This document shows, piece by piece, positions 25,410 through 29,969 of a stretch of DNA of 47,136 nucleotides. The translations under genes and the position numbers were made by a program. The first letter of the stretch is position 1. The number at the start of each line of letters is the position of its first letter. A model generated the notes under the pieces. The model searched no databases, had not been told where the DNA came from, and saw nothing but the letters and a program-made list of their open reading frames with translations. The stretch is taken from positions 741,665 to 788,800 of the forward strand of contig CP070684.1 of the NCBI GenBank assembly GCA_020352775.1, read 5' to 3'. Origin of the DNA: Candidatus Omnitrophota bacterium (GTDB taxonomy: Bacteria > Omnitrophota > Gorgyraeia > Duberdicusellales > 4484-171).

Positions 25410-26495
25410 ATGAAGAAGTATGATTTCGGTCTTAACTGGAGCGGGACAGCAAAAGAAAAGTTTGTAGGGTTTCTTCAGGAAGTATGTAAAGAGAAGAAAC
25501 TTTCATTTCTTTGGATCTCTGAGGATAACGTCAAAAAGGTAGTACAAGATCTTGAGCGAAAGCACCTTATGGTCAAGGTTCTTCTGGATACTGAAGCTAC
25601 CTATAATAAGAAGGGAGATTTTTACGCCCGTATTTGCTATGCCGTTAAAGATTCGGGTGGAGTGGTTATTAACGATCCGGATCGTACAAAAATAGCTATT
25701 GATAAGTCAGTCTTACATTATGAGCTAGCAAATGAAGGTATTTTTACTCCTTATACAGTTATTGTGCGTAACTGGCAACCCAGTACTTATCGATTATCAG
25801 AGACGGAAAGGGAGAAATTAGGCATTCCTTTTGTGATAAAGCCGGCGCTGGGATATGGACAGCAGGGGGTTATAAAAGATGCTCGCGGCTCAATACGTGA
25901 AATTGCTAGTGCGCGAAACTTTGATCGGGGAGATAACTTTTTATTACAAGAGAGGATTACACCAATCGAGTTGGGAGGTAAACGCGGCTGGTTTCGTGTT
26001 TTTAATCTCTTTAATGCAATTATTCCATGCTGGTGGGATGATATCACCAGTCACTATGAGCACTTGCTGTATGAAGAGTTTAATAGCTACGGGCTTTATC
26101 CTTTAGTAAAAATCGTTTCTAAAATTGCCAGTGTTACACGAATGGCGTGGTTTTCTACAGAAATAGCAATTAATAATAAAGATAACCAGCGACGTTTCAT
26201 CGCCATTGATTATCTGAACGATCAGTGCGCTATGGATACCCAATCAGAAACACCAACCGGTGTACCTGATAATATTGTTAAATATACCGCCAACTGCATG
26301 GCAGATATTGCCTATCGCCATATACATCAGGAGAAATTGGATAGAAAATATACAGTTTGGCTTAAAGATGCAAGCATTGAAATAAGAGGGCTTGGAGTTG
26401 CTCCAGAATTATTGACTGCAAATAGCAATAAAAAATTCATTAGTCATAGTAAGTTTGTGCATAAAATATTACAAATATTTCACCATGATCAGTAG
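25410..26495 (+). CDS. ATP-grasp superfamily enzyme (RimK/YheCD-like)
   Basis: The 361-residue protein has the ATP-grasp layout: an N-terminal Rossmann-like part with GGVVINDPDRTKIAIDK, the ATP lid PFVIKPALGYGQQGV, LLQERI (adenine-side glutamate), and the Mg-binding C-terminal strand RRFIAIDYLNDQCAM. Acceptor and donor are unknown. Because it follows an LD-carboxypeptidase by 17 bases, ligation of an amino acid or modified peptide in murein recycling is one idea, and peptide-tagging like RimK is another. The YheC/YheD spore-coat family is the closest by motif order, but the assignment is by eye. Confidence 0.72.
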   Translation: MKKYDFGLNWSGTAKEKFVGFLQEVCKEKKLSFLWISEDNVKKVVQDLERKHLMVKVLLDTEATYNKKGDFYARICYAVKDSGGVVINDPDRTKIAIDKSVLHYELANEGIFTPYTVIVRNWQPSTYRLSETEREKLGIPFVIKPALGYGQQGVIKDARGSIREIASARNFDRGDNFLLQERITPIELGGKRGWFRVFNLFNAIIPCWWDDITSHYEHLLYEEFNSYGLYPLVKIVSKIASVTRMAWFSTEIAINNKDNQRRFIAIDYLNDQCAMDTQSETPTGVPDNIVKYTANCMADIAYRHIHQEKLDRKYTVWLKDASIEIRGLGVAPELLTANSNKKFISHSKFVHKILQIFHHDQ

Positions 26496-26637: not shown

Positions 26638-27306
26638 ATGAAGATGAGATGGTTTTTTATTTTTGTGGTTGTAATTTCAGCCGGGGCATTAATGCCGGCA
26701 TCAGATGTATATGCTGATTTTGCTTTTTCAACAAAGGCAGGTACCTTGGGCGCGGGTGTAGAGGGGATTAAGCGTATAAACTCTATGTTTAATTTTAGGA
26801 TTGGTGCTAATGCTTTTCAATTTGAGTATGATGGCACAGAAAGTGAAATTGAATATGACATTGATATTGATCTTTTATCTTTTTCAGCTTTGGTTGACTT
26901 TTTCCCTTTTGGGAGAGGATTTCGTATAACCGCTGGGGTGATGAGGGGTGAAAATGAACTTGAGTTTAACGCAAAGCCGTCGGCAACCTATCAGATAGGG
27001 GACACTACTTATACGCTGTCGGAGGTAGGATCATTAACTGGTAAGCTTGATTTTGATGGGTTCGGGCCTTATGCTGGAATCGGTTGGGGAAACCCTTTTG
27101 GAGAAGGTAAGAGGTGGACGCTTACAATGGATATTGGCGTTATGGTTCAGGGTTCACCCAATGTGGATTTAAGCGCCGATGGTACTTTGTCAGGTGCCGC
27201 AGCTTTTTTGGCTGATCTTGCAAACGAAGAGAATAATTTACAGAACGCCTTGGAGGATTATGAGTTTTATCCAGTAGTTATGGTGGGATTATCTTATAGA
27301 TTTTAG
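26638..27306 (+). CDS. Outer-membrane beta-barrel protein, 222 residues
   Basis: A signal peptide (FFIFVVVISAGALMPASDVYA|DFAF) is followed by amphipathic strands (FNFRIGANAFQFEYDG, IDIDLLSFSALVDFFPFGRGFRITAGVMRG, FDGFGPYAGIGWGNPF, WTLTMDIGVMVQGS) and the terminal sorting residue in VVMVGLSYRF. The size and the central polar loop (LADLANEENNLQNALEDYEF) fit a small eight-stranded barrel. It belongs to the same general class as 14744-15541 but is not closely similar. AAGGAG precedes ATG. Confidence 0.82.
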   Translation: MKMRWFFIFVVVISAGALMPASDVYADFAFSTKAGTLGAGVEGIKRINSMFNFRIGANAFQFEYDGTESEIEYDIDIDLLSFSALVDFFPFGRGFRITAGVMRGENELEFNAKPSATYQIGDTTYTLSEVGSLTGKLDFDGFGPYAGIGWGNPFGEGKRWTLTMDIGVMVQGSPNVDLSADGTLSGAAAFLADLANEENNLQNALEDYEFYPVVMVGLSYRF

Positions 27307-27453
27307 GAATACATTGCTAGTTTATCCCCATAAATCTGTTGTAAAAATAGCAAGTAAGCACTACACTAATTAACCTACCTATTCTTTTTAATCCGTGTTA
27401 TATTTAAAGGGAGAAAGCATTTTACGTGTTAGGCTTTGCTTTTGGAGGGGAGG

Positions 27454-28509
27454 ATGAGAAAGCTATCCAGACGAGAATTTATTAAGGTGTGTTTTTTCTC
27501 AGCTCTTACAGCTGTAATGGGGATGTTTTCTTTATCCTTCTTTAGGAGGGTTAAAAGCCCGGCAATAGCCAAAAAAGGGGTAGGTTTTGAGCCTGCTTAT
27601 CTAAAGTTGCACAAAAGCGGTGAGTTGCGCAGGAGAGGAGAGAAGCTCTGGAATATTATGAAAAGCTGTCAAATGTGTCCCCGAAAATGCGGGGCTAAGC
27701 GCCTGGCTGGAGAAAAGGGCTTTTGTCAAGCTTCATCCCAACTAGAGATATCCTCTCACCATCCGCATTTTGGGGAGGAGGATCCATTAGTTGGGAGAAA
27801 TGGCTCAGGTACTATATTTTTCACAAATTGTGGCTTAAGGTGTGTTTTTTGCATTAACTGGGAAATCAGCCAGGGGGGTCAGGGCCAGGTGCGAAGTATT
27901 GATGATTTGGCTGATATGATGCTTGAACTTCAAACAAAGGGCTGCCACAACATAAATTTTGGTACTCCGACCCACTATGTGCCCCATATTATTTTGGCAG
28001 TAGATAAGGCCGCAGCCAAAGGTTTACGGCTTCCTTTGGTCTATAATACCTGTGGATGGGAGCGCATGGAGGTCTTAAAGCTTCTGGATGGTATTATTGA
28101 TATTTATCTGCCGGATTTTAAGTATTCTTCTTCAGATATGGCGGCAAAGTATTCATCTGATGCTTATGAATACCCTGAGATCACAAAGAAGTCCTTTCTT
28201 GAGATGAATCGCCAAGTTGGGGCGGCAATCCCGGCTGAGGACGGGCTTATATATCGCGGCCTTATGGTGCGCCATTTGGTCATGCCCAATGGGGTCAGTG
28301 GCACAAAGGTGGTTGTTGAGTGGATCGCAGCCAATTTGCCAAAAAACACCTATCTTAACCTTATGTCACAATACAGACCATACTATAAGGCCCGTAATTA
28401 TCCCCAGATTGCCCGTAGTATAACCGCTAAAGAATACAGAGAAGCTATTCGATGGGCAAAACAAGCCGGACTTACCAATGTCCATCTTCAAGCGACCCCT
28501 CTTATTTAG
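27454..28509 (+). CDS. Radical SAM enzyme of PflX type (COG1313) with Tat signal peptide
   Basis: Start ATG 27454 follows GGAGGGGAGG; an in-frame TTG at 27436 would read through that site. The 351-residue protein begins with a twin-arginine signal: SRREFIK at 5-11 then a hydrophobic stretch to about 30. Then come a four-cysteine motif C72-C75-C79-C91 (CQMCPRKCGAKRL) and the radical SAM motif C126-C130-C133 in CGLRCVFC. GEEDPLVGRNGSGTIFF, NINFGTPTHYVPHI and DIYLPDFKYSSSDMA are typical of PflX/COG1313. The family activates or modifies unknown partners and is normally cytoplasmic; a Tat leader suggests export of a folded Fe-S enzyme or a membrane anchor. No neighbour explains it. Confidence 0.85.
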   Translation: MRKLSRREFIKVCFFSALTAVMGMFSLSFFRRVKSPAIAKKGVGFEPAYLKLHKSGELRRRGEKLWNIMKSCQMCPRKCGAKRLAGEKGFCQASSQLEISSHHPHFGEEDPLVGRNGSGTIFFTNCGLRCVFCINWEISQGGQGQVRSIDDLADMMLELQTKGCHNINFGTPTHYVPHIILAVDKAAAKGLRLPLVYNTCGWERMEVLKLLDGIIDIYLPDFKYSSSDMAAKYSSDAYEYPEITKKSFLEMNRQVGAAIPAEDGLIYRGLMVRHLVMPNGVSGTKVVVEWIAANLPKNTYLNLMSQYRPYYKARNYPQIARSITAKEYREAIRWAKQAGLTNVHLQATPLI

Positions 28510-28583: not shown

Positions 28584-28612
28584 TTGATGGTAAGAGGCAG
28601 GTATGTTATTCT
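28584..28612 (+). promoter_or_regulatory. Promoter of Rrf2/TauE unit
   Basis: TTGATG (28584-28589), 17 bases, TATTCT (28607-28612). The palindrome at 28618 covers the expected start site. Confidence 0.6.
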
Positions 28613-28617
28613 ATATA

Positions 28618-28631
28618 TTGTCTATAGACAA
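28618..28631 (+). promoter_or_regulatory. Operator-like perfect palindrome before Rrf2 gene
   Basis: TTGTCTATAGACAA is a perfect 14-base palindrome placed five bases after the -10 box and 21 bases before the Rrf2 start. Its location over the transcription start is that of an autorepressor site. Confidence 0.7.
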
Positions 28632-28652
28632 AGTAGGCAAATAGAGGGTGAA

Positions 28653-29054
28653 ATGAAGTTAACCACCAAGACAGAATATTTATTGTTGGCACTCATTTAT
28701 ATTGCTCGCCAAGAAAAAGAGCATTTTATAAAAATCAAAGATATTTGTACGGTATATGATATTCCCAAAAAATATCTAGAGCAACTATTTTTAACGCTTA
28801 AGCACAATAGATATATAAAAACAAAAAGAGGTGCTAATGGTGGCTACAAGCTTGCAAGGCCCGCAAACAAAATTAGTGTATCTGAGATTGCCAGGTTAAT
28901 GGATGGCGCCTTAGCGCCGATAGAGGCTGTAAGTAAACATTTCTATTCGCAGACCCCCTTAGAAAAAGAAAAAAAAATCATAAAAGTTTTACAAGAGATA
29001 AGAGATTACATTGCTAACAGATTGGAAAAATTAAAACTTTCTGATTTAGTATGA
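28653..29054 (+). CDS. Rrf2 family transcriptional regulator
   Basis: Start ATG 28653 (133 residues) gives the standard Rrf2 opening MKLTTKTEYLLLALIYIAR; upstream in-frame starts would lie inside the promoter and operator. The winged helix is IKIKDICTVYDIPKKYLEQLFLTLKHNRYIKTKRGANGGYKLARP, and the C-terminal dimerisation helix follows. The protein has one cysteine only, in KDICTV, so it cannot bind Fe-S by the IscR three-cysteine mode and resembles CymR-type members. It is followed by a TauE/SafE exporter, so it probably responds to a sulfur metabolite. Confidence 0.9.
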   Translation: MKLTTKTEYLLLALIYIARQEKEHFIKIKDICTVYDIPKKYLEQLFLTLKHNRYIKTKRGANGGYKLARPANKISVSEIARLMDGALAPIEAVSKHFYSQTPLEKEKKIIKVLQEIRDYIANRLEKLKLSDLV

Positions 29055-29120
29055 TTGATTTCTAATTTCGTTAATATATATAATTCGATTCATGTTTATA
29101 TTACAGAAAGGAGGCGCAAA

Positions 29121-29969
29121 ATGATATTAGAATTATCTTTGACATTTATTATCGGTATAACAATGTTTGCTTTTCTTTGTGAATATATGGATTCTACTTT
29201 GGGCATGGGGTATGGGACTACATTGACGCCGGTTCTTTTAATCATGGGTTTTGAGCCATTACAAGTAGTGCCGGTAGTATTATTATCAGAATTAATTAGC
29301 GGCTTATTGGCTGGCATTTTCCATCAGCGGGAAGGTAATGTAAATTTTAGACCAAAAAGCTTAAGGCCTTCTGTGATCTGGGGGAAATTAAATACTTTAG
29401 GCTGGGTTGCGAGCTTCAAAAGAGGTTTTCCTTTGCATTTAAAAATTGCTGGACTTCTGGCATTATGTAGTATTATAGGCACTGTTACTGCAGTTTTTAT
29501 CGCCCTTAATATTTCTAAATTTTGGGTAAAACTTTATATAGGTTTTTTAGTGCTCTCAATGGGAATAATGATGCTTATTTTTTTTAATAAGAAATTCAGC
29601 TTTTCTAAGAGGAAGATATTTGGTTTAGGGATGTTAGCTTCTTTTAACAAGGGTATTAGTGGCGGTGGTTATGGGCCGCTGGTAACAAGCGGCCAAATAC
29701 TTTCAGGAGTTGAAGGAAAGAGTGCGGTCGGTATAACATCTTTAGCTGAAGGGTTAACCTGCGCCGTGGGTATCTTAACTTATATTTTTGTTTCAAAAAA
29801 TCCTTTAGATTTAAAGCTGGCCCCTTTTATTATTATCGGAGCTGTTCTTTCTGTTCCTTTCTCAGCAAAGAGCGTAAGAAAACTTACTGAAAAAAGATTA
29901 AAATTTGCTATCGCGACCCTTACTATAATTTTAGGAATATTTACTATTGTAAAAACGTTAAAGAGTTAA
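29121..29969 (+). CDS. TauE/SafE family sulfite/sulfonate exporter-like permease
   Basis: Start ATG 29121 follows AAAGGAGG; the open frame extends 22 residues upstream without a ribosome site. The 282-residue protein has about eight membrane helices in two halves. The first half carries MDSTLGMGYGTTLTPVLLIMG (the TauE glycine-rich loop) and VVPVVLLSELISGLLAGI; the second half carries FNKGISGGGYGPLVTSGQIL. Family members export sulfite, sulfoacetate or other organosulfur anions. The Rrf2 gene ends 66 bases upstream and they probably share a promoter. Confidence 0.9.
   Translation: MILELSLTFIIGITMFAFLCEYMDSTLGMGYGTTLTPVLLIMGFEPLQVVPVVLLSELISGLLAGIFHQREGNVNFRPKSLRPSVIWGKLNTLGWVASFKRGFPLHLKIAGLLALCSIIGTVTAVFIALNISKFWVKLYIGFLVLSMGIMMLIFFNKKFSFSKRKIFGLGMLASFNKGISGGGYGPLVTSGQILSGVEGKSAVGITSLAEGLTCAVGILTYIFVSKNPLDLKLAPFIIIGAVLSVPFSAKSVRKLTEKRLKFAIATLTIILGIFTIVKTLKS

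Follow-up and report, generated by a model that had tools for sequence, protein, structure and literature searches.

A conserved export signal on a clade of PflX-like radical SAM proteins from Omnitrophota and other bacterial phyla

Introduction

Radical SAM enzymes are generally held to be cytoplasmic because they depend on S-adenosylmethionine (SAM), on a strong reductant and on a [4Fe-4S] cluster that is intact. One gene in the stretch of Candidatus Omnitrophota DNA analysed here (47 136 nucleotides of contig CP070684.1, referred to as the window) would be an exception: an initial annotation described its product as a PflX-type radical SAM enzyme with a twin-arginine (Tat) signal and treated the exported form as a single odd protein. 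This raises the question of whether the protein does leave the cytoplasm and, if so, whether it stands alone. Known Tat-exported Fe-S and cofactor proteins resemble it in having an RR signal and in being exported as folded cofactor proteins; we know of none that is a radical SAM enzyme. No description of an exported radical SAM enzyme was recognised in the literature searched, Burroughs et al. 2019 lying outside its scope. The parts described below belong to known families; the exported clade, within that literature, appears undescribed. The domain table of a Rhizobium etli supernatant proteome (PMC2964644) has a 'Radical SAM' entry, and a passage of PMC7159879 cites Burroughs et al. 2019 on Memo-Ammecr1 systems.

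Results

The gene (27454–28509, forward strand, as are all of its features given here) is an intact open reading frame of 351 codons plus stop, starting at the ATG at 27454, with a Shine-Dalgarno-like GGAGG (27444–27448, read from the sequence) ending 5 nt before it. The order reported by the initial annotation, SRREFIK and a hydrophobic stretch ahead of two cysteine motifs, is indeed found: the twin-arginine motif occupies residues 5–11 (27466–27486) and is followed by a hydrophobic h-region of 19 residues (12–30; 27487–27543), by RRVK and by an AxA (37–39) at which cleavage is uncertain, then by a four-cysteine segment at 72–91 (C72/C75/C79/C91, CxxCxxxCx11C; 27667–27726), a probable auxiliary Fe-S site, and by the radical SAM CxxxCxxC at 126–133 (C126, C130 and C133; 27829–27852). 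Further on lies NINFGTPTH (27949–27975), which we take, by analogy with the pyruvate formate-lyase activating enzyme (PFL-AE), to be the SAM-binding β2 region. The N-terminus fits the Tat pattern, for which the consensus is S/T-RR-x-F-[LI]-K-like, followed by a moderately hydrophobic h-region (best 15-residue hydropathy 1.85, against a range of 1.12–2.75 for the RR-type relatives described below). As RRVK follows the h-region, charge does not settle the topology. With the Tat signal model TIGR01409 (cut-off 16.7 bits) the protein scored 14.1 bits in a protein scan and 17.9 bits in a whole-genome search, in which it was the better of two matches; the other is not an N-terminal signal, as it lies inside a 307-aa open reading frame that is methyltransferase-like (RsmH-like by eye).

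The protein matches the Pfam family Radical_SAM (PF04055) with 45.4 bits (cut-off 29.5). As no NCBIfam family model reached its cut-off, the PflX/COG1313 name is that of the initial annotation; 'PflX-type' is fair as a description. An AlphaFold model (built with 44 sequences) has a mean pLDDT of 88.7, falling below 50 over most of residues 1–41. Searched with phmmer, the PDB sequences gave no match at E 0.1 or better. The nearest solved fold to the model is that of PFL-AE (3cb8; Z 19.1, rmsd 2.9 over 222 residues, 14% identity; Foldseek E 1.4e-8) and CxxxCxxC sits in the radical SAM barrel of the model. In contrast to the location proposed for the window protein, PFL-AE is a cytosolic enzyme, and the match to it starts only at residue 95, beyond both the signal and the segment with the four cysteines.

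When GTDB genomes were scanned, 124 relatives were found. The best 80 of these, for which alignments were available, come from Omnitrophota, Desulfobacterota-type groups, Bacteroidota, Nitrospirota, Latescibacterota, Acidobacteria, Calditrichaeota, Chloroflexi and others, and all are marked as metagenome assemblies. The initial annotation had held that homologues beginning after residue 30 would speak against a signal; 66 of these 80 closest loci align from residue 1–5. The exported clade was taken as 87 loci including that of the window, after exclusion of L032, L035 and L116 (apparently the same genes as L115, L003 and L060), and 85 of them have a readable N-terminus (L109, at a contig end, and L132, masked, were left out of signal counts). 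From their N-termini these 85 could be divided into three groups. The largest, with 72 members, has RR (69) or KR/RK (3), classed partly by eye, and in 27 of the 69 RR types a lipobox-like cysteine follows the signal. The second has 11 members, classed by eye, with Sec-type or membrane-anchor N-termini: six Sec-lipoprotein-like, two Sec type-I-like (L094 and L118) and three membrane-anchor-like (L096, L117 and L119). The two remaining members (L010 and L097) have no visible signal, nor was one seen in about 250 bases upstream in three frames; both genomes have TatC. The h-regions of the Sec/anchor group are more hydrophobic than those of RR types (2.07–3.49 against a mean of 1.62, p 2.5e-7), although a few of these values (e.g. 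L077) may precede the true start as hydropathy was computed over the whole upstream open frame. A scripted test for an RR motif followed by a hydrophobic run was passed by 67 of the 85 clade members, 28 of 565 neighbouring open reading frames and none of 45 lower-identity homologues.

These 45 are what was left of 49 after removal of L015, L130, L131 and L144; they were chosen by identity below 54.5%, not by their N-termini, and were drawn entirely from the family, order and class to which the window genome belongs. They include a copy in that genome itself (G000:C1:344834-345646), correspond to the COG1313/PflX proteins of the initial annotation, and share with the window protein the domain, the cysteine motifs and 39–54% identity in the best segment. 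They differ in that the scripted test detects no signal (L030 has SRRDFLK with no hydrophobic run) and in having C-Q-N-Y after the cluster motif in place of the C-I-N-W-E of the exported clade. Homologues starting at about residue 40–60 form a separate clade, and a quick tree split the exported clade from 13 of the lower-identity homologues with an SH-aLRT of 98.

All seven cysteines (72, 75, 79, 91, 126, 130 and 133) are invariant in the 85 clade and 45 lower-identity rows, CxxxCxxC thus being 100% conserved in both sets; as rows were picked by CxxCxxxC, the invariance of C72, C75 and C79 is partly selection, that of C91 is not. G117-S118-G119, N166, N168, T171, P172, N198, D221, R273, H274 and CxxxCxxC are conserved at least as well in the clade as in the lower-identity homologues, and all 11 Sec/anchor types keep the seven cluster cysteines together with N166, N168, T171, P172 and H174. 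The clade also has signature residues of its own (I134, W136, E137, H178, D184, W202 and W290, 92–100%) that differ from the lower-identity consensus. Residue 170 (27961–27963) is G in the window protein and V in 99–100% of relatives, which may be a sequence error or a real change.

The initial annotation had also named the lack of tatABC as evidence against export. The window genome (one contig, 1.28 Mb, 84.6% complete) has a TatC-family gene (G000:C1:9413-10024, 215.8 bits) adjoining a TatA/B-family gene (G000:C1:9168-9320, 66.7 bits), whereas a separate tatB was not found in it; as this is the only TatA/B-family match, the translocase looks like a minimal TatAC. In the 86 other host genomes TatC was found in 39 of 50 and in 31 of 36; SecY, as a control for completeness, was found in 14 of 15 and 69 of 71 (83 of 86). 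With the window genome included, TatC was present in 66 of 72 hosts of RR/KR/RK forms and 2 of 11 hosts of Sec/anchor forms (L093 and L118; Fisher p 7e-7), and in 61 of 67 against 2 of 10 by a stricter count (p 5e-6). Six RR-type hosts had no TatC match (L003, L041, L049, L076, L078 and L102), and the genome of L076 also had no SecY match. It should be noted that signal type needs only about four switches on the tree. Once descent is allowed for, the link is not significant and the test lacks the power to show one: the independent pairs number two on starred branches (four on all), of which on average 1.6 point the same way and 0 the opposite way.

The Tat signal proposed by the initial annotation is thus supported by its conservation in the clade and by the presence of tatA and tatC, and on this sequence evidence export of the window protein is well supported. 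The notion of a single odd protein fares differently, since the signal is common to relatives in many bacterial phyla, so that a whole branch of the radical SAM family probably works outside the cell membrane.

No conserved operon partner of the PflX-like gene was found: when 642 open reading frames from 82 loci were clustered no neighbour family occurred in more than eight loci, and Pfam searches of 145 of the 146 adjacent open reading frames (one overlapping frame of L010 was excluded) gave no family in more than four. The neighbours of L036 and L075 include a second radical SAM protein that lies above the cut-off of TIGR04337 (AmmeMemoRadiSam) and has a signal of its own, as judged by eye. 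Like the window protein, this enzyme has an N-terminal CxxCxxxC and a radical SAM domain, and many of the genomes with a PflX-like protein also hold a copy that bears a Tat- or Sec-type signal; the window protein itself is not a member of the family, scoring 20.1 bits against a cut-off of 220. TIGR04337 matches were present in 74 of the 77 host genomes searched (of 87), including that of the window, in which a Tat-type copy at about 396.5–397.6 kb (L176:2472-3629, forward strand) has MSRREFFLRG near its start and adjoins a membrane protein fused to a spermidine synthase. The idea that the window protein is the only Tat substrate of its genome was dropped in view of this copy, which TIGR01409 misses. 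The 30 highest-scoring copies loaded from a search of the class comprised 14 RR-like, 13 hydrophobic and three with no signal, according to a rough script.

Signal-bearing and signal-less TIGR04337 copies, chosen mainly by open-frame length from the matches in the host genomes, were then compared for their neighbours; the 45 exported rows correspond to 44 genes in 41 loci (L214 and L293 are one gene). The scripted signal classes in this comparison are rough: the L075/L230 copy, for example, was called RR and looks Sec-type by eye. Of the 44 signal-bearing genes, 27 have the spermidine-synthase-fused membrane protein at a distance of no more than 3.5 kb, against one of the 30 signal-less genes; a MEMO/AMMECR1 protein is nearby in 23 of 44 and one of 30, respectively. 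For copies with more than 2.5 kb on both sides the counts are 18 of 29 against one of 20 (p 6e-5) and 17 of 29 against none of 20 (p 9e-6), although it should be noted that the neighbours of L036, L176, L178 and L195 were known beforehand and that the neighbour references were taken from L036, L176 and L178. Distances to 'PflX' in this comparison were left unused, as there were cross-matches between radical SAM genes. Pfam identified Memo plus AMMECR1 in both fusions tested and Spermine_synth in both membrane proteins tested, and the 20 MEMO-matching open reading frames listed mostly begin with Sec- or lipoprotein-like sequences, by eye. In L036 the AmmeMemo enzyme, the spermidine synthase fusion and the PflX-like gene lie in a row; in L178 the order is AmmeMemo enzyme, MEMO-AMMECR1, two apparent M16 peptidases and PflX-like gene. 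Membrane polyferredoxins of the NapH kind lie beside some members (L075, L093, L096, L178 and L206) and DsbD-type proteins beside others (L056, L060, L070 and L215).

Co-occurrence of exported PflX-like and AmmeMemo proteins was considered as evidence for a shared pathway and rejected because the latter are common anyway: of 292 genomes of the class 207 have AmmeMemo matches (E 1e-75) and nine have PflX-like matches of at least 57% identity, and the figure of 74 in 77 for the hosts makes the same point. On the link with TatC the signals of the second enzyme point both ways. Four TatC-less genomes (G310, G313, G351 and G380) hold an RR-type TIGR04337 protein, which suggests that TatC was probably missed in some assemblies. 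The two proteins differ in G310, G313 and the TatC-positive G309, where an RR-type TIGR04337 protein occurs together with a non-RR PflX-like one. In five further TatC-less genomes (G062, G064, G306, G307 and G312) the signal-bearing TIGR04337 copies inspected and the PflX-like protein are all Sec- or anchor-type. We read the window gene as probably belonging to a larger group of radical SAM enzymes that work outside the cytoplasm.

Discussion

The signal and its conservation, tatA and tatC, the intact cluster motifs and the second signal-bearing enzyme with its conserved neighbours can all be read directly from sequence; the topology, activity on the outside, the nature of the substrate and the way in which SAM and electrons get across the membrane are inferred. 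The explanation that we favour, and think rather better than even, is that a radical SAM protein of the PFL-activase fold is exported by TatAC, tethered to the outer face and active there on an envelope component, as part of a wider extracytoplasmic set. The protein would fold and acquire its Fe-S clusters in the cytoplasm and TatAC would carry it across the membrane in this state, after which the uncleaved signal would tether it to the outer face, a role that a lipid would play in the lipobox-bearing relatives. The target of its radical SAM chemistry there would be some component of the envelope, which might be a lipid, an isoprenoid or a quinone, and the exported AmmeMemoRadiSam enzyme and exported MEMO-AMMECR1 fusion would belong to the same wider set. 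Of the steps in this scheme, passage to the outer face has the best support, the Fe-S protein being folded when exported in hosts that have Tat; chemistry outside is suggested by the conserved active site. An envelope lipid or isoprenoid as substrate is a guess, in line with proposals for MEMO systems.

One difficulty for catalysis outside is that SAM is not known outside the cytoplasm. It would fall away if the protein were exported and had ceased to be a radical SAM enzyme, its Fe-S clusters serving beyond the membrane in electron transfer or sensing with no SAM cleavage, and the G that replaces V170 in the presumed SAM-binding strand of the window protein points the same way. A pure carrier would not need the residues of the catalytic barrel, however, and these are kept at least as well as among the lower-identity homologues, V170 itself being kept at 99% in the exported clade, so that we consider this unlikely. 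The problem of supply would also vanish if the N-terminus were merely a membrane anchor with the catalytic domain facing the cytoplasm and thus within reach of SAM and reductant. Charged residues do flank the h-region of the window protein on both sides and three relatives have plain anchor-like N-termini, but such an arrangement would make the twin arginines, the lipobox-like cysteines of 27 of 69 RR types and the two type-I-like signals needless, and RR goes with TatC, exceptions aside; we regard it as improbable. That the twin arginine is a chance match, the true start lying downstream in a cytosolic protein, might be argued from the internal Met residues at 22 and 24 and from the sub-threshold TIGR01409 score in one of the two scans. 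Against this stand the 72 clade members, out of 85, that combine RR (or KR/RK) and an h-region, the outcome of the scripted test (67 of 85 against 0 of 45) and the GGAGG before the first ATG, and we give it hardly any credence.

A wider form of the exported-enzyme explanation is tentative and in our view doubtful. Many phyla would have a complete extracytoplasmic radical SAM system made up of the exported PflX-like protein, AmmeMemoRadiSam and MEMO-AMMECR1, in which SAM or a derivative comes by way of the spermidine-synthase-like membrane protein (domains of this kind bind SAM derivatives), electrons come from NapH-like polyferredoxins or DsbD-like proteins, and the enzymes of Tat-less lineages have switched to Sec. 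Both routes of supply are hypotheses with gene order as their sole basis, and an Fe-S protein that crosses by Sec, unfolded, would need to have its clusters assembled on the outside. The work of Burroughs et al. of 2019 on Memo-Ammecr1 systems may already contain a description of parts of the exported AmmeMemo system. If the conserved exported clade and the second signal-bearing enzyme are as proposed, radical SAM chemistry would also take place at the cell surface, which raises the question of how SAM, electrons and clusters reach enzymes there. The poorly understood MEMO/AMMECR1 proteins, which have human relatives, would moreover gain a bacterial location where a substrate may be sought.

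Some further observations concern individual loci. Upstream of the window gene lie genes for a 361-aa protein (25410–26492) and for a signal-bearing 222-aa protein that is outer-membrane-like by eye (26638–27303), neither with a Pfam match at E 0.001; downstream (28584–29966) are an Rrf2 regulator and a TauE/SafE-type permease, a pair not prominent beside the relatives. In L178 (4643–12657, reverse strand), from a TatC-less genome, the AmmeMemo enzyme and the MEMO-AMMECR1 fusion have Sec-type signals and the PflX-like protein is anchored. Finally, L206 (3046–10349) has three signal-bearing radical SAM genes of the AmmeMemo type; a NapH-like polyferredoxin separates the first from the second, and the spermidine synthase fusion follows all three.
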